From NCBI GenBank assembly GCA_944321945.1, contig CALUNE010000007.1, positions 37,055-101,054 of the forward strand: DNA of 64,000 nt, in the 5' to 3' direction. The first letter of the stretch is position 1. Each line of letters starts with the position of its first letter. The DNA comes from an uncultured Alistipes sp. (lineage in GTDB: Bacteria > Bacteroidota > Bacteroidia > Bacteroidales > Rikenellaceae). Shown piece after piece: positions 434 to 7,293 of the stretch. The notes under the pieces are model-generated. The model was not told where the DNA came from. It saw only the letters and a list, made by a program, of their open reading frames with translations, and searched no databases. The position numbers were made by a program, and so were the translations under genes.

Positions 434-1834
434 ATGATCGCCTACCTCATCGCAAGCATTCTGATCGCTTCGGCGGCCTTTCTCGTACGCCGCGAACGGC
501 AGCTCTTCCTCACGGGCGTACTCTTCTACGCCGTGCAGGCGGCCTTCGCCTGTGTCATCCTCTTCGGCGGGCTCTACGGGCAGGAATCGACCGCCTGGTT
601 CCGGTTCGATGCGCCGGGAACGCTCTTCTACGTGCTGCTGTGCGTGGTCTCGGCCTTCGCCTACTTCCACTCCGAGGCCTATCTGCGCGACAACGACCTG
701 CAGCAGACCCGCGCCTATTCGGGGCTCGTCATGCTGCTGACGACGGCCATCGCCGGATCGTACTTCGCAGCCAATCTGGCCGTGACGTGGATCTTCCTCG
801 AGGCCACGACACTCTGCTCGGCCGGCATCATCTACCACCGCCGCACGGCCCAGACGCTCGAAGCCGCCTGGAAATACGTCTTCGTCTGCTCGACGGGCAT
901 CGCCATGGCCTACCTGGGCATCCTGCTGCTGGCCGCCGCCACCGACTGCGAGTCGCTCGACTACCTGGCCGTGGCCGAAGCCGCCCCGCGCGGCAACGCC
1001 CTCTATCTGAAGATCGCCTTCCTGCTGATCCTCTGCGGCTACAGCTGCAAGGTGGAGCTCTTCCCGCTGCATACGGTAGGCATCGACGCCAACTTCGCGG
1101 CTCCGTCGCCCGCCTCGGCACTGATCTCCACCGGACTGGTCAACGCCGGCTTCCTGGCCATCTTCCGCGTCTACCGGATGCTGGCCCCGACGGAGATTTT
1201 CGCCTGGGTGCGCTCGGTGCTGCTGATCGTCGGGGTGCTGTCGCTCGTCATCGGCGCGCTGTTCCTGCGCCGCACGAACAACTACAAGCGCTTCCTCTCC
1301 TACTCGACCGTCGAGAACATGGGCATCGCCGCCATCGGTCTGGGAGTGGGCGGCATCGGAGCCTGGGCCGCCGTGTTCCACGTCGTCTGCCACACCTTCA
1401 TCAAGAGCAGCCTCTTCCTGCAGATGGCCGTCGTGCGACAGGTCTACAACGGCTACCGCATCAACCGCATCGGCGACTACATCCACATCAACCGCGTCGG
1501 AGCCGTCGGCCTGCTCGCGGGCATGGTCGTTCTGGTGGCCTTCCCGCCCTCGCCGCTCTTCCTCTCGGAGCTGATGATCCTGCGCGAAACGATCGCCGGC
1601 GGACGCTGGTGGCTCGTCGCCGGGATGCTGCTCCTGCTCTGCATCGTCATCTACTCGTTCTGCTCGCGCATGATCCGCCTCTGCTACCAGCCCAACCAGG
1701 ACGAACTCCACCCCTCGAAGGTCGATCGGGCACTGTCGTGGTCGGCCCTCTCGCTGCTGGTCGTGGCCATGGTGCTTGGGCTCTGGCAGCCGGAGCTGCT
1801 GCGTGAACTGATCGATCAAATCGCCTTGTCATGA
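434..1834 (+). CDS. HyfF-like proton-translocating membrane subunit (NuoN/MrpD family)
   Basis: A 466-residue, very hydrophobic protein of the proton-antiporter (proton_antipo_M) family found in complex I, Mrp antiporters and group 4 hydrogenases. It contains the segment LEATTLCSAGIIYHRR and a lysine/histidine-bearing core (CKVELFPLHTVGIDANFAAPSP) typical of these subunits. It would form one antiporter-like half channel coupling redox chemistry in the peripheral arm to ion movement. Its stop codon overlaps the start of the next gene as ATGA, which indicates translational coupling. Residue-level proton path assignments need an alignment. Confidence 0.85.
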   Translation: MIAYLIASILIASAAFLVRRERQLFLTGVLFYAVQAAFACVILFGGLYGQESTAWFRFDAPGTLFYVLLCVVSAFAYFHSEAYLRDNDLQQTRAYSGLVMLLTTAIAGSYFAANLAVTWIFLEATTLCSAGIIYHRRTAQTLEAAWKYVFVCSTGIAMAYLGILLLAAATDCESLDYLAVAEAAPRGNALYLKIAFLLILCGYSCKVELFPLHTVGIDANFAAPSPASALISTGLVNAGFLAIFRVYRMLAPTEIFAWVRSVLLIVGVLSLVIGALFLRRTNNYKRFLSYSTVENMGIAAIGLGVGGIGAWAAVFHVVCHTFIKSSLFLQMAVVRQVYNGYRINRIGDYIHINRVGAVGLLAGMVVLVAFPPSPLFLSELMILRETIAGGRWWLVAGMLLLLCIVIYSFCSRMIRLCYQPNQDELHPSKVDRALSWSALSLLVVAMVLGLWQPELLRELIDQIALS

Positions 1835-3360
1835 ACTATCTCGTAACCGACAATACAGCGGGCGCCGTGCGCCTGGAGGAGATCCCCGAAATCTCCTACG
1901 CCTCGTTCTACGAACTGATGCGCACGTGGCTGGCGGACGAACGCTACCACGTGGGCCACTATTTCGCCCTGCCGTCCGACGACCGCATGCGCTTCTACGC
2001 CCTGGTGCTGGACGACGCCGAAGGGCGCGTGCTGGTCACCTCCCACGCCACGGGCTACTACGACGACACGGCCCTGCCGTCGCTCACGGCCCTGCATCCG
2101 CAGATGCACCCCTTCGAGCGCGACATCACCGAACGCTACGGCATCCGCTTCGACGGACAGCCCTGGCCCAAGCCGCTGCGCTTCCCCTTCGACCGCTACG
2201 ACCGTCAGAGCACGATCGAGAACTACCCCTTCTACACGATGGCCGGACGTACGCTGCACGAGGTCAACGTGGGACCGATCCACGCCGGAATCATCGAGCC
2301 GGGAGCCTTCCGCTTCATCTGCAACGGCGAGCAGGTGCTCCATCTCGAGATCGCCCTGGGCTATCAGCACCGCGGGGTGGAGGCGGCCTTCCAGACGACG
2401 GACAACCGGCTGAGGCAGAACTGTCTGGCCGAAACCGTCGCGGGCGACAGCGCCGTAGCCCACGCCACGGCCTTCGCCGAAGCGATCGAGAAGCTCACCG
2501 ACCGCGAACGCCCCGCACAGCTCGACCGTGAACGGGCCGTAGCCCTCGAACTGGAACGCATGGCCATGCAGATCGCCGATACGGGCGCCCTGTCGATGGA
2601 CACGGGCTACCAACTGGGACAGGTGGCCTGCGAGGCACTGCGCACGATGACGATCAACACCACGCAGGCATGGTGCGGCAACCGCTTCGGCAAGGGGCTG
2701 ATCCGCCCCCACGGCACGGACCATCCGCTGACACCGGCCAAGTCGGAGATGATCCGCACGAACGTCGCCCGGATCGCCCGGCGTTACGACGAGGTGCGTC
2801 GCGATATCGAATCGTCACCCTCGCTGCTGGCCCGCTTCGAACAGTGCGGCGTGGTGCCGCGCGAGGAGATGCGGCGGATCGGGGGCGTCGGTCAGGCGGC
2901 CCGCGCCAGCGGACTGGCGCGCGACATCCGCACGACACATCCCTGGGGCTCGTACGGCAAGTGTCTGCACCACACGCCGGTCGTCGAACAGGCGGGCGAC
3001 GTGATGGCCCGCCTCGAGGTGCGCTGCCGCGAGGTGCTGCAGTCGGCCCGCTACATCGACCATCTGTTGGAGATCTACGAACGGAAATACGGCGCGGTGG
3101 AGAATCCGTGCGACGAGCCCGACTACACGACCTCGCTCACACCGTCGTCGCTCTCGTTCGGCCTGGTCGAGGGGTGGCGCGGCGAGACGTGCCACGTGGT
3201 GGTGACCGATGCCGACGGACGCATCGAGGCGTGTCGCATCAAGGATCCGAGCCTGCACAACTGGCTGGCGCTGGCGCTGGCCGTGCGCGGCGAGGGGATC
3301 TCCGACTTCCCGATCTGCAACAAGAGCTTCAACCTTTCGTACTGCGGCCACGACCTCTGA
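1831..3360 (+). CDS. HyfG-like large subunit (NuoC-NuoD fusion) lacking NiFe ligands, Ehr type
   Basis: A 509-residue protein. Residues ~1-130 resemble the 30-kDa NuoC domain (ERDITERYGIRFDGQPWP); from ~140 it resembles the 49-kDa NuoD/hydrogenase large subunit (VNVGPIHAGIIEPGAFRF). In active group 4 hydrogenases an N-terminal CxxC and a C-terminal DPCxxC bind nickel and iron. Here the first motif reads AETVAGDSAVAH at ~200 (both Cys replaced by Ala and Ser) and the C-terminus ends KSFNLSYCGHDL, where by eye the Cys pair is Ser and Gly. It therefore fits the energy-converting-hydrogenase-related (Ehr) group, whose substrate is unknown. The start overlaps the preceding gene by ATGA and a terminator follows the stop. 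Confidence 0.85.
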   Translation: MNYLVTDNTAGAVRLEEIPEISYASFYELMRTWLADERYHVGHYFALPSDDRMRFYALVLDDAEGRVLVTSHATGYYDDTALPSLTALHPQMHPFERDITERYGIRFDGQPWPKPLRFPFDRYDRQSTIENYPFYTMAGRTLHEVNVGPIHAGIIEPGAFRFICNGEQVLHLEIALGYQHRGVEAAFQTTDNRLRQNCLAETVAGDSAVAHATAFAEAIEKLTDRERPAQLDRERAVALELERMAMQIADTGALSMDTGYQLGQVACEALRTMTINTTQAWCGNRFGKGLIRPHGTDHPLTPAKSEMIRTNVARIARRYDEVRRDIESSPSLLARFEQCGVVPREEMRRIGGVGQAARASGLARDIRTTHPWGSYGKCLHHTPVVEQAGDVMARLEVRCREVLQSARYIDHLLEIYERKYGAVENPCDEPDYTTSLTPSSLSFGLVEGWRGETCHVVVTDADGRIEACRIKDPSLHNWLALALAVRGEGISDFPICNKSFNLSYCGHDL

Positions 3361-3581: not shown

Positions 3582-4697
3582 ATGAAACTGCCTCAACAGA
3601 TGCTTGTCCTCGGCGCGGCACTGTTCGCCCTGACCGGAACGACGGCCTGCGGATCGGACTCCGAAACGCCGAATCCCGACCACGGAGACGGCTCGTCGCA
3701 GGAGCAGATCCATACCGTCACCGTTGCCCGGGACGGTTCGGGCGACTACACGTCGCTCCAGGAGGCCTTCGACGCCCTGCCCGTCGACGGCAAACCCCAC
3801 ATCGTCCGCCTGCGCCCGGGAACCTATTATGAAAAGGTCTCGCTGACGTCGAAACACCCCCACGTCACGCTCATCGGCGACGATGCCGCCACCTGCATCG
3901 TCACCTACGACGACTATGCGGGCCACGACGACGGCCAGGGCGGCACGCTCGGCACATGGCAGAGCCAGACGCTGCTGATCGATGCCGACGACTTCACGGC
4001 CTGCGGCGTCACCATCGCCAACAGCTATGTCAACAGCAAGGCCAATGCCGCCCTCAACAAGGATACGCAGGCCGTCGCCGTGCGGGTTGAGAGCGACCGC
4101 GCGGCCTTCTACAACTGCCGCATCACGGGCTATCAGGACACCCTCTTCGGCCGCGGCACGGGGCGCGTCTACCTGCGCGACTGCTACGTCGAGGGCAACG
4201 TCGACTTCATTTTCGGCTCGTCGACGATCCTGCTGGACCGCTGCACGCTCCACGTCAACCGCAACAACAGCGTGCTGACCGCCCCCTCGACCCCGGAGGA
4301 TCACCGTTTCGGCATCGTCTGCCTCGACTGCACGATCACCTGTCCGGCGACGGGCGAAGTGGACTTCGACGGGTCGAAATTCTCGTACTTTCACCTGGGA
4401 CGTCCGTGGCAGAATGCGCCGCGTGCGGTCTTCGTGCGCTGCGAGGAGCCGGCAGCCCTGCGGGCCGAAGGCTGGACCACGATGTCAGCTTCGCCGGCCC
4501 TCTTCGCCGAATACCGGTGTACGGGCGAAGGTGCGGCAGCCGACCGTCTCGCTCAACGGGCCAACGGAGGCCGTCAGCTCTCCGACGAGGAGGCCGCCGA
4601 ATATACCGCAGCAACGATCTTCGCCCGGGAAGCGGCTCCGGAGAACGGCTCCGACTGGCTCCCGGCCGAGGCCTTCACCGACCCCGCCGGTCGATAA
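3582..4697 (+). CDS. Pectinesterase (CE8), predicted lipoprotein
   Basis: A 371-residue protein that should remove methyl esters from homogalacturonan. A lipoprotein signal ends in LTGTTAC (Cys 23), followed by a Ser/Asp/Gly-rich linker, so the enzyme is probably surface or periplasm anchored. The right-handed beta-helix pectinesterase domain is marked by GSGDYTS, the QAVAV segment, GYQDTLFG (~185), VDFIFG (~208) and LGRPW (~273), which hold the two catalytic aspartates and the arginine. Length is usual for bacterial CE8 enzymes. It has its own candidate promoter and is bracketed by two terminators. It stands alone inside a hydrogenase-like operon with no susC/susD pair or other pectin gene nearby. 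Confidence 0.9.
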   Translation: MKLPQQMLVLGAALFALTGTTACGSDSETPNPDHGDGSSQEQIHTVTVARDGSGDYTSLQEAFDALPVDGKPHIVRLRPGTYYEKVSLTSKHPHVTLIGDDAATCIVTYDDYAGHDDGQGGTLGTWQSQTLLIDADDFTACGVTIANSYVNSKANAALNKDTQAVAVRVESDRAAFYNCRITGYQDTLFGRGTGRVYLRDCYVEGNVDFIFGSSTILLDRCTLHVNRNNSVLTAPSTPEDHRFGIVCLDCTITCPATGEVDFDGSKFSYFHLGRPWQNAPRAVFVRCEEPAALRAEGWTTMSASPALFAEYRCTGEGAAADRLAQRANGGRQLSDEEAAEYTAATIFAREAAPENGSDWLPAEAFTDPAGR

Positions 4698-4839: not shown

Positions 4840-4870
4840 TTGTAGGTTCCGGGGGATTTCCGTATTTTTG
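4840..4870 (+). promoter_or_regulatory. Sigma-ABfr promoter for the fused small-subunit/CHR operon
   Basis: TTG at 4840-4842, a 20-base spacer and a perfect -7 element TATTTTTG at 4863-4870 match the Bacteroidota housekeeping promoter. It is 20 bases upstream of the HyfH/I-like start, so this subunit is transcribed separately from the other hydrogenase-like genes. Confidence 0.8.
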
Positions 4871-4890: not shown

Positions 4891-5655
4891 ATGATTCTAC
4901 CGAAAATACGGGTTCTGCGCAGCCACGGCCGTCAGGCCATCGAGGATCTCGATGCTGTTCTGCTGACCGAGGAGTTCCGGGGACGCCCCGAACTGACCTT
5001 CACCGAAGATACCACCGAAGCCGAACACGCCCAGGCCATCTGCCCGACGGGCGCCTTCACGGCCGATCCGCTGACGCTCGATCTGGGCCGCTGCCTCTTC
5101 TGCGGAGCGTGCGCACGGGTGGCACCGCGCAACGTGCGCTTCACGAACGACTACCGCATCGGTTCGCCTACCCGCGAAGGGCTCGTTCTCCACGCCGGCG
5201 ACACCCGCGTGGCGTTCGATCCCGAACAGGTACGGCCCGAAATCCGCCGCTGCTTCGGCCGCGCGCTCCAACTGCGCGAAGTCTCGGCCGGAGGCGACGC
5301 CTCGGTCGAAATGGAACTCAACGCCACGGGAAACGTCAACTTCGACCTCGGGCGCTTCGGCATCGGCTTCACCGCCTCGCCTCGCCATGCCGACGGGGTG
5401 GTCGTCTCGGGCCCGATCACGGCCAACATGGCCGAGGCGCTCGAAATCTGCTACGACGCAGTCGCCGAGCCGAAAATCCTCGTCATGTGCGGCACGGAGG
5501 CCTGCTCCGGAGGACTCTTTGCCGAGAGCCGCGCCCTGGACCGCAGTTTCCTCGATTCGCACAGGCCCGACCTCTGGCTCCCCGGAGCTCCGACCCACCC
5601 AATGATCTATATCGACGGCCTGCGGACGCTGCTGGGCCACAAAAAACGCATCTGA
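4891..5655 (+). CDS. Fused ferredoxin and HyfI/NuoB-like small subunit with degenerate cluster ligands
   Basis: A 254-residue protein. The N-terminal part is a reduced ferredoxin domain: C51 (CPTGAF), then C68, C71 and C74 (CLFCGAC), while the fourth cysteine of that motif is Ala 78. This leaves four ligands for one [4Fe-4S] cluster. The C-terminal half follows the NuoB/HyfI pattern (RFGIGFTASPRHADGVVVSGP, MAEALEICYDAVAEPK, then GTEACSGGLF and LPGAPTHP). The CxxC of the proximal cluster is replaced by Asn148-Val-Asn-Phe151 and the GCPP cysteine by Ala 233; Cys 205 (and Cys 200) remain. It probably serves the Ehr-like complex, as HyfH and HyfI would. It is followed after 3 bases by a CHR transporter. 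Confidence 0.8.
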   Translation: MILPKIRVLRSHGRQAIEDLDAVLLTEEFRGRPELTFTEDTTEAEHAQAICPTGAFTADPLTLDLGRCLFCGACARVAPRNVRFTNDYRIGSPTREGLVLHAGDTRVAFDPEQVRPEIRRCFGRALQLREVSAGGDASVEMELNATGNVNFDLGRFGIGFTASPRHADGVVVSGPITANMAEALEICYDAVAEPKILVMCGTEACSGGLFAESRALDRSFLDSHRPDLWLPGAPTHPMIYIDGLRTLLGHKKRI

Positions 5656-5658
5656 TTC

Positions 5659-6225
5659 ATGATGGAACGTCTGCATACGATCTTTCTGTCGTTCTTCAAG
5701 ATCGGCCTCTTCACCTTCGGCGGCGGCTACGCCATGATCCCCCTGATCGAACGCGAGGTGATCGACAACCGCCACTGGATCGAACAGCGGGAATTCCTCG
5801 ACCTGCTGACCCTGGCCCAGTCGGTTCCGGGCCCCATTTCGCTCAACACGTCGGTCTTCGTCGGGTACAAGATCCGCGGACTGCGGGGAGCCGCCGCAGC
5901 GCTGCTGGGCGTAGTCGTGCCGTCGTTCGTCATCATCCTCATCATCGCCCTCTTCTTCGCCGGCATCCGCCACAATCCGGTGGTCGACGCCGCCTTCAAG
6001 GGGATGCGCCCGGCCGTCGTGGCGCTGATCATCGGGCCGGTGATCTCGCTGGCGCGCGGCATGCACTGGTCGATGTTCTTCGTCATCGCCGCCGCGGCAC
6101 TGGCCGTCTGGGGGCTGGGCTGGTCGCCGATCTGGGTGCTGGTGGCCGGCGCCGCTGCCGGCATCGCCTGGGAGCTGGCCGTCGCCCCGCGGATCGCCCG
6201 ACACAAAAAGAATCCCGAAGCATGA
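5659..6225 (+). CDS. Chromate transporter (CHR) half protein, first copy
   Basis: A 188-residue membrane protein with a single CHR domain: FTFGGGYAMIPLIEREV near residue 15, then AQSVPGPISLNTSVFVGYKIRG, a pattern repeated in the partner gene at 6712. Short-chain CHR proteins normally work as pairs and are annotated as chromate/sulfate-related transporters, but the natural substrate is often unknown. Two ATG codons (5659 and 5662) could start it. It begins 3 bases after the fused small-subunit gene and ends by ATGA overlap with the next gene, so all four genes look like one transcript. Confidence 0.9.
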   Translation: MMERLHTIFLSFFKIGLFTFGGGYAMIPLIEREVIDNRHWIEQREFLDLLTLAQSVPGPISLNTSVFVGYKIRGLRGAAAALLGVVVPSFVIILIIALFFAGIRHNPVVDAAFKGMRPAVVALIIGPVISLARGMHWSMFFVIAAAALAVWGLGWSPIWVLVAGAAAGIAWELAVAPRIARHKKNPEA

Positions 6226-6698
6226 ATCCGACAAAAAACATGAAATACAGTCTGTCTCTGGGGATTCTGCTCCTTGCGTTGCTGATAGCCGGGCCCTCGA
6301 CGGCCCGGTACACCGCTGCCGCCTCCACCCAAAAGCCCACGGCCGGCTCCGGCACCTCCACGGAGGAGGTCCGGCAAGCGCTGGAGCGCTTCTACCGGGC
6401 ATACGCCGGCTGGGTAGCGGCCAGCTACAACGAGCATCCGGAGAAGCCCGCCCTGCCCCTGGACAAGGCCACCCGCCGGAAGGTGGAAAAGGCCGCCGCC
6501 GAAACGGACGGGGATCCGCTCATCCGGGCCCAGGATTTCAACAAGCGGTCGCTGCCGACGATCCGGGTCGAACACGTCGAGGGCGAATGGTATGCCATCG
6601 CCTATCTGGCCACGTACGAAAACCGGTGCGTCGTTATTCCCGTTCGTGCCACCATGCGGAACGGGCAGCTGGAAATCACCGACATCACCCTGCCATAA
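6222..6698 (+). CDS. Small secreted protein between the two CHR halves (function unknown)
   Basis: A 158-residue protein starting at an ATG that overlaps the preceding stop (ATGA). It has a signal peptide (MKYSLSLGILLLALLIAG after a short leader) with a likely cleavage near residues 28-33, so the mature part is exported. The mature region begins TEEVRQALERFYRAYAGWV and ends with beta-strand-like sequence (EWYAIAYLATYENRCVVIPV). The shape recalls DUF3828-like proteins, but I do not recognise it firmly. Its place between two CHR half transporters, with 13 bases to the second, suggests a periplasmic partner; this is inference only. Confidence 0.75.
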   Translation: MNPTKNMKYSLSLGILLLALLIAGPSTARYTAAASTQKPTAGSGTSTEEVRQALERFYRAYAGWVAASYNEHPEKPALPLDKATRRKVEKAAAETDGDPLIRAQDFNKRSLPTIRVEHVEGEWYAIAYLATYENRCVVIPVRATMRNGQLEITDITLP

Positions 6699-6711
6699 CC
6701 CTCATCCCGAC

Positions 6712-7293
6712 ATGATTCTTCTCTGGCAACTCTTCGTTTCGTATCTCAAGATCGGATTCTTCGGATTCGGCGGCGGATACGCCATGCTGTCGCTCATCCA
6801 GAACGAGGTGGTCGTGCAGCACCAGTGGCTCACCAACGCGCAGTTTGCCGACATCGTCGCCATCTCGCAGATCACCCCCGGCCCAATTGCCATCAACTCG
6901 GCCACCTACGTGGGCTACACCGTCGGTCTGGAGACCGGCTACGCGTGGTGCGGCATTCTGGGATCGGCCATTGCGACGCTGGCCGTCTGCCTGCCGTCGC
7001 TCACGCTGATGATCCTCGTAGCACGGTTCTTCCTGCGGCTGAAGGACAACCGGCTGGTCGAAGGGGCCATGCGGGGCATGCGTCCCGTGGTGATCGGCAT
7101 GATCGCCGCCGCGGCGCTGCTGCTGATCTTCCCCCACAGTTCGGAACCCGACGAACAGAACTTCATCGACGCCTGGAGCTGGGTGCTCTTCGGCGGGGTC
7201 TTCATCGGCTCGTGGCGCAAGGTGAACCCGATCCTGCTGATCGTCCTCTCGGCCGCGGCGGGCATCCTGATCTACCACGTCTTCGGACTTTAG
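6712..7293 (+). CDS. Chromate transporter (CHR) half protein, second copy
   Basis: A 193-residue CHR-domain membrane protein with GFFGFGGGYAMLSLIQNEVV and ISQITPGPIAINSATYVGYTVG, paralogous to the first CHR gene. The open frame extends further upstream, but the ATG at 6712 gives the usual CHR N-terminus and lies 13 bases after the previous stop. The two halves probably assemble as a heterodimer equivalent to one long ChrA. What is transported is not shown by the sequence. Confidence 0.9.
   Translation: MILLWQLFVSYLKIGFFGFGGGYAMLSLIQNEVVVQHQWLTNAQFADIVAISQITPGPIAINSATYVGYTVGLETGYAWCGILGSAIATLAVCLPSLTLMILVARFFLRLKDNRLVEGAMRGMRPVVIGMIAAAALLLIFPHSSEPDEQNFIDAWSWVLFGGVFIGSWRKVNPILLIVLSAAAGILIYHVFGL

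Follow-up and report, generated by a model that had tools for sequence, protein, structure and literature searches.

What does a hydrogenase-like complex do once the residues that hold its metal cofactors have been replaced? This question is raised by a 64,000-nucleotide stretch of DNA from an uncultured Alistipes sp. (contig CALUNE010000007.1, positions 37,055 to 101,054; "the window" hereafter denotes this whole stretch). It encodes EhrL, a large subunit without NiFe ligands, and EhrS, a small subunit that has lost the ligands of its proximal [4Fe-4S] cluster. A preliminary description of the window had reported the first of these losses; the second, the more surprising half, was absent from it. 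The ligand losses themselves, as read from the sequences, are firm. The features concerned are as follows.

1831–3360, + strand: EhrL, NuoC/NuoD-type (HycE-like) large subunit without NiFe ligands, 509 amino acids, ATG start (Complex1_49kDa and Complex1_30kDa)
2440–2451, + strand: codons A204 to S207, at the site of the first CxxC motif (CGIC in HycE; HycE alignment)
3337–3348, + strand: codons S503 to G506, at the site of the second CxxC motif (CYSC in HycE; HycE alignment); the protein ends three residues further on
4891–5655, + strand: EhrS, ferredoxin domain fused to a NuoB/HyfI-type small subunit, 254 amino acids, proximal ligands lost
5041–5112, + strand: C51, C68, C71 and C74, the sole [4Fe-4S] ligand set left in EhrS
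5296–5307, + strand: codons D136 to V139, at the site of proximal cysteines 1 and 2 (CNGC in MbhJ)
5497–5499, + strand: codon E203, at the site of the third proximal-cluster cysteine
5587–5589, + strand: codon A233, at the site of the fourth proximal-cluster cysteine

The NuoC/NuoD character previously assigned to the open reading frame at 1831–3360 was confirmed by matches to Complex1_49kDa (4.3e-30) and Complex1_30kDa (2.6e-5). With a profile of 22 EhrL relatives, HycE (7z0s_E) was the first match (E = 1e-76), followed by MBH (3e-60), complex I (1.8e-49 and weaker) and MBS (1.2e-32). Likewise, the AlphaFold model (pLDDT 92.5, pTM 0.93, with low confidence at residues 150–154 and 506–509, the latter within the former ligand motif) had HycE (7z0s_E) as its top match in the PDB (TMq 0.86). 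In the profile alignment with Escherichia coli HycE, the four NiFe-ligand columns are occupied by A204, S207, S503 and G506, so that both cysteine pairs are replaced, as had been claimed; HycE and HyfG, read from their DNA, have both CxxC motifs. No shifted CxxC pair was found in the alignment of EhrL with its relatives, the nearest cysteine, C505, being one column off and variable (C in 51/59 rows whose EhrS has lost the proximal cluster and in 37/46 cluster-bearing rows, S or A in the others). The C-terminal tail of HycE and HyfG, which have 39 residues counted from the first cysteine of the second motif to the end, is also absent: the 108 aligned Ehr large subunits all end at or before window residue 509, which lies seven residues from S503. 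HypD, the only Hyp protein searched for, was found in 0/120 family genomes, including that of the window (77.65% complete), with a positive control in four of 14 named genomes. This absence reinforces the earlier conclusion, supported by the replaced ligands, that the complex is no normal hydrogenase.

The former NiFe pocket had also been proposed as a place to look for quinone-compatible residues, and there the outcome was unfavorable. In EhrL, G205 and P157 stand at the positions of the quinone-site residues Tyr87 and His38 of Thermus Nqo4. Y87 of Nqo4 is mentioned in PMC8042128. The equivalents of both residues being missing, a complex I-type quinone site was rejected as a candidate. On this evidence, together with the lack of NiFe ligands, tail and HypD, EhrL does not qualify as a hydrogenase or as a quinone site of the complex I type. 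The ligandless motif recurs in relatives from many phyla, and dN/dS values for EhrL are low (0.13–0.19 in six congeneric pairs), which argues that the loss of ligands reflects neither chance nor decay. Eight residues of EhrL (S503, Y504, G506, D508, D206, N497, K498 and H151) are invariant in all 59 cluster-lost and all 46 cluster-bearing rows.

These features correspond to those of the energy-converting hydrogenase-related (Ehr) complexes, to which the preliminary description had likened the system. Ehr complexes lack Ni/Fe-coordinating residues and are suspected of coupling redox reactions to charge movement (PMC6349859), and those of the Candidate Phyla Radiation (CPR) have no metal-binding cysteines (PMC7304191). 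EhrA-1, EhrC, EhrL and EhrS have been named in Geobacter sulfurreducens, where their role was, according to the same source, never investigated and where the subunits were more abundant on formate than under hydrogen-containing conditions (PMC7894505). Among the best 80 of at least 573 confirmed matches, a sample as far as counts across phyla are concerned, EhrL relatives were found in Bacteroidota, Verrucomicrobiota, Planctomycetota, Acidobacteriota, Geobacteraceae, Melainabacteria, Spirochaetota and other groups. The 134 large-subunit sequences assembled comprised one complex I protein from the genome of the window, 22 unpaired sequences (nine of them the same genes fetched again) and 111 paired with a small subunit, 108 of which were unique. 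In the EhrL tree, 108 Ehr rows were separated from HyfG and HycE with a support of 100, and the window protein was not placed within a ligand-bearing hydrogenase clade; the tree contained only these two hydrogenase rows, at which there was a long-branch warning, with no Ech, MBH or MBS rows and no Ehr proteins of G. sulfurreducens. The agreement of the EhrL features with the Ehr literature, together with relatives across phyla, indicates that the placement in Ehr is right, and that EhrL alone is of a known kind.

The small subunit departs from this pattern. In the alignment with MbhJ, all four proximal [4Fe-4S] cysteines of EhrS are replaced (D136, V139, E203 and A233). NuoB of complex I from the same genome, read directly, keeps all four N2 cysteines (in CC, GGC and PGC); the loss of proximal ligands is therefore specific to the Ehr protein. 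The AlphaFold model of EhrS (pLDDT 95.1, pTM 0.90) had HycG (7z0s_G) as its top match, with a TMq of 0.50 over the NuoB-like part. The number of proximal cysteines in the 111 paired sequences, including three duplicates, was four in 46, none in 38, one in 26 and two in one; the most common lost states were D-C-D-N (23) and D-V-E-A (13). Cluster-bearing sequences account for 46 of the 108 unique paired rows and include two from Geobacteraceae and four from Melainabacteria. The structure alignments took in 69/73 fetched EhrS rows and 74/79 EhrL rows, plus the window protein.

The presence of the cluster did not enter the data of the EhrL tree. Of its 62 unique lost rows, 59 lay in one 60-row clade (support 100), mostly from Bacteroidota, with one record titled Phycisphaerae and a single intact row (L093). 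A careful tree, built from 70 of the 108 unique rows, had a branch (support 94/95, unstarred) that set the 37 Bacteroidota-type lost rows apart. A single clade of the Bacteroidota-type lost rows and the three lost rows from Verrucomicrobiota was rejected by the approximately unbiased (AU) test (p = 9.1e-87). On these sequences, the proximal cluster is lost at least twice separately, in the Bacteroidota-type clade and in Verrucomicrobiota. The Verrucomicrobiota rows read SEEW, CACW and DVCW, with zero, two and one proximal cysteines, respectively, and the AU test of one versus more losses gave p = 0.41. The loss is taken to be derived because other Ehr complexes and the HycG/HyfI-type hydrogenases carry the proximal cluster; this is outgroup reasoning, the tree tests giving no direction of change.

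As judged from the aligned sequences, replacement at the proximal site is non-random. Within the lost clade (59 rows), 57 rows have D at position 136, with E and A in one each, and 57 have S at position 138. Position 203 carries D (38 rows), E (20) or H (one); N (35) and A (22) predominate at position 233, and C (25) and V (17) at position 139. Positions 136, 139, 203 and 233 are C in 46/46 cluster-bearing rows, by definition of the class. The arginine of the HRGxE motif, which in complex I lies 3.7 Å from N2 (PMC8042128), corresponds to R181 of EhrS and is conserved as R in all 59 lost rows and as R or K in the 46 others. The dN/dS of EhrS was 0.10–0.18 (six congeneric pairs), and EhrL and EhrS are thus both under purifying selection.

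EhrS retains one of the two clusters of a ferredoxin-type domain, bound by C51, C68, C71 and C74, which we take, from the usual pairing in such domains, to be the cluster nearest the proximal site. The first three of these cysteines are invariant and C74 is at least 90% conserved in a 70-row alignment. A Gemmatimonadota EhrS outside this alignment (L187:5749–6705) has seemingly lost both ferredoxin clusters and kept the proximal cysteines, the reverse of the window case. The ferredoxin region contains four to six cysteines in 58/59 rows of the lost clade, and eight in one. At least eight were found in 32/46 cluster-bearing rows, indicating that some of the cluster-bearing rows have lost the second ferredoxin cluster as well. 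With the one remaining cluster nearest the proximal site, the electron chain of the Bacteroidota lineage would be without both entry and exit. A second small subunit carrying the wire was considered and rejected: the only PF01058 proteins in the genome of the window (77.65% complete) are EhrS and the complex I NuoB, which adjoins NuoCD on contig 11. Of six other genomes examined, the complete genome G160 has EhrS alone, and the remaining five have two PF01058 proteins.

The large subunit shows little trace of the loss. Of 82 EhrL columns at least 95% conserved in cluster-bearing rows, 67 are conserved with the same residue in the lost rows and six fall below 80% there; none switched, so that columns changing along with the cluster were rejected as a candidate signal. 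Seven columns are conserved only in the lost rows. EhrL and EhrS also co-occur, the former being present in 49 and the latter in 47 of the 120 family genomes, with all 47 among the 49; EhrL alone was found in G152 (82% complete) and G190 (65%).

EhrL shares its operon with antiporter-like membrane subunits. The order in the genome of the window (G000, contig 7) is HyfB-like (662 amino acids), HyfC-like (304), HyfE-like (209), HyfF-like (466), the 509-residue large subunit, a pectinesterase and the 254-residue small subunit. The window begins in mid-operon, with HyfB, HyfC and the 5' start of HyfE lying upstream of it, and the following further genes of this region fall within it.

1–429, + strand: HyfE-like membrane subunit, 3' part ("hydrogenase 4 membrane subunit", 2.8e-9, under the curated cut-off); the complete gene encodes 209 amino acids (L032:11855–12484)
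434–1834, + strand: HyfF-like antiporter-type subunit, 466 amino acids (Proton_antipo_M, 1.7e-38)
3582–4697, + strand: pectinesterase gene, between EhrL and EhrS (Pfam and related loci)

The Pfam and NCBIfam names of the operon proteins are generic complex I or hydrogenase-4 names, under the NCBIfam cut-offs. Gene content and sequence support the identification of the complex as an Ehr complex of HyfB, HyfC, HyfE, HyfF, EhrL and EhrS, the ligandless large subunit, the HyfB/C/E/F-like arm and the relatives in Geobacteraceae, Melainabacteria and Spirochaetota all being in keeping with this group. Membrane-arm residues were scored in 30–39 lost and 42–44 intact rows per subunit. E123, K206, E294, K324 and E379 of HyfF were present in all lost rows scored and K285 in 95% (39 cluster-lost rows), bearing out the earlier impression of an intact HyfF-like channel. 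E140, K219, K298, K349 and E404 of HyfB were kept in all lost rows scored, as were E126, E134, E185, E199 and E205 of HyfC.

EhrL and the main ion-path residues are kept although the wire went at least twice; what selection preserves is thus probably not the supply of electrons to the EhrL pocket. We give about an even chance to the view that the complex is an Ehr variant in which the arm no longer acts as an electron wire, and which would most likely be a non-redox, Mrp- or DAB-like, ion-translocating complex. Ions would still be moved via the antiporter-like subunits, coupled to some process that is not the delivery of electrons to the pocket. The complex would most likely be a Mrp-type proton/cation exchanger, or one whose EhrL pocket performs non-redox chemistry, as DAB does with CO2. 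The carboxylates at positions 136 and 203 might make up, next to R181, for the negative charge that went with the cluster, and hold the joint folded; they could also serve the joint as a protonation or metal switch in place of a redox switch. The remaining [4Fe-4S] cluster would then be structural, or a sensor. The simplest model suggested by the sequences would be an ion exchanger, or an enzyme linked to the proton-motive force, with a non-redox arm. Published precedents are DAB2 for the coupling of a NuoL-type subunit to a reaction without redox chemistry (PMC13144422) and MBS for missing NiFe ligands alongside an altered proximal cluster (PMC7684303). More tentatively, and with the balance somewhat against it, the whole could be a complex I-type machine, arm included, without electron transfer into the arm, in which a carboxylate pair stands where the Fe-S site of the joint was and switches through protonation or metal binding. 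This reading extends to Ehr complexes at large, which might then not be redox enzymes, as EhrL is conserved alike with and without the proximal cluster.

Known systems provide partial parallels. The Ehr complexes of Geobacter (GSU0739–0745), Margulisbacteria, Saganbacteria, Melainabacteria and CPR resemble that of the window in their ligandless group 4-type EhrL, ferredoxin/NuoB-type EhrS and HyfB/C/E/F-like arm, but the window lineage additionally lacks the proximal ligands and has one ferredoxin cluster. The best solved-fold match for both window subunits is formate hydrogenlyase/hydrogenase 4 (HycE-HycG, HyfG-HyfI; group 4a), and the gene order is similar to that of hyf; the two CxxC pairs and the C-terminal tail of HycE and HyfG are, however, absent from the window EhrL. 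In MBS (MbsL, MbsJ), two of the four NiFe ligands have likewise gone, and three cysteines hold the proximal cluster; MBS keeps three [4Fe-4S] clusters as a wire (PMC7684303), whereas the window has 0/4 proximal cysteines and one cluster. The window proteins depart from the MBS features in having no proximal cysteine in EhrS and no ligand cysteine in EhrL. Complex I (NuoCD, NuoB) has its fold and the HRGxE motif in common with EhrL and EhrS, but its N2 ligands and quinone residues Tyr87 and His38 are absent from them. Mrp (PMC7684303) and DAB (DAB2; PMC13144422) have antiporter-like subunits without a redox arm, as proposed here for the window, but they have no arm of the EhrL/EhrS type, and DabA is carbonic-anhydrase-like (PMC13144422).

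Several observations weigh against a non-redox arm. The conservation of the cysteines of the remaining cluster would be odd if redox function had gone altogether, and other residues could hold an unseen cofactor. The three lost rows from Verrucomicrobiota have eight ferredoxin-region cysteines, and two of them retain one or two proximal cysteines. Beyond EhrL, conserved columns were kept in the lost rows at 34/46 in EhrS (one, position 136, having switched), 8/13 in HyfE, 36/42 in HyfC and, with paralogous antiporter copies possibly mixed in, 18/33 in HyfB and 21/40 in HyfF; H213 of HyfF falls from 98% in intact to 31% in lost rows. Finally, in the 71 family genomes at least 90% complete, Ehr and complex I partially exclude each other (both in five, Ehr only in 31, complex I only in 17, neither in 18; Fisher p = 0.002, kinship ignored), which would also fit a respiratory role.

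A redox-driven alternative we consider rather unlikely: the lone [4Fe-4S] cluster would accept electrons from a soluble donor and pass them to an acceptor near the ferredoxin domain, with a conformational change driving the ions. The conserved ligands of this cluster speak for it, and the greater abundance of Geobacter Ehr on formate (PMC7894505) would suit redox work by a relative that still bears the proximal cluster; nevertheless, 58/59 Bacteroidota-type lost rows combine four to six ferredoxin-region cysteines with at most one proximal cysteine, and EhrL conservation is unchanged despite the lost electron supply. Moreover, the distance from an N6b-like cluster to the pocket would presumably exceed the usual tunnelling distance. 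It is also conceivable, although unlikely, that the pocket binds a different metal or substrate, for a non-redox reaction powered by, or powering, ion flow, like the hydration of CO2 by DabA/DabB. The eight residues invariant in both classes of row point in this direction, and DAB2, in which a NuoL-type subunit works in a redox-free complex, provides a precedent (PMC13144422). The evidence from neighboring genes is sparse, consisting of a SulP-type anion transporter family near 7/97 loci (L093, where the member was checked with Pfam, L097, L098, L100, L116, L123 and L148).

The loss of cofactor ligands in two subunits, and the separation of EhrS from EhrL here and in some relatives, might suggest decaying, functionless remnants; with dN/dS values of 0.10–0.19 in both subunits, near-invariant replacement residues and every EhrS genome being among those with EhrL, decay is very improbable. 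A working [NiFe] hydrogenase with displaced ligands has in its favor that HycE of formate hydrogenlyase is the best solved relative, but it is barely credible given the lack of CxxC pairs, C-terminal tail and proximal-cluster cysteines and of HypD throughout the family genomes.

The loss of proximal ligands in EhrS is the new part of these results, a claim limited by the scope of the literature covered. Proximal ligands are not a stated criterion for Ehr in the Ehr passages covered, and are a feature of 46/108 rows here. No report of proximal-cluster loss in Ehr was found at the level of titles and abstracts or in passages on Ehr, a coverage that did not extend to the founding papers (Coppi et al. 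2004, Marreiros et al.), and a search for lost N2 ligands gave nothing on an Ehr-type loss, as judged by title. The means by which electrons passing through the arm of complex I drive ion movement at a distance in the membrane have long been sought; a natural lineage that lost the cluster at the joint, a second loss having occurred elsewhere, and kept EhrL and the main ion-path residues provides a direct test of the roles of the arm other than electron transfer. The result would narrow down the function of Ehr, left open in the Ehr literature covered, for gut and environmental Bacteroidota.

The surroundings of the complex vary. EhrL and EhrS lie at most 300 bases apart in 32 of the 47 family genomes with both, farther apart on the same contig in nine and on different contigs in six; EhrS is on another contig in G219 and G260 and about 380 kb from EhrL in G160. 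The pectinesterase gene, also found between EhrL and EhrS in relatives G234 and G201, is judged to be an insertion and not part of the complex. Upstream of EhrS, at 4840–4870, there is a candidate Bacteroidota-like promoter pattern (TTG, 20 bases, TATTTTTG), which would be consistent with EhrS having its own transcription start.

No partner gene common to all Ehr loci was found among 97 loci. A gene family with HTH-17 and PTS EIIA-2 domains (checked by Pfam in two members) was present at 20/97 loci, all cluster-bearing (20 of 45), and at 0/41 fetched lost loci; these genes (L094:15014–15724, L156:1082–1798 and 18 other loci) lay beside HyfB in the eight maps viewed, and may indicate regulation linked to ion balance. 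In the window, EhrS is followed by two short chromate-transporter-type genes (5659–6225 and 6592–7293), the first of which begins three bases past the EhrS stop codon. This pair adjoins EhrS in 16/30 fetched family EhrS loci (flanks of about 1.5 kb), including those of G219 and G260. Between the two genes, at about 6223–6698, lies a small gene with a signal-like N-terminus, for which there is a 66% match in G234.

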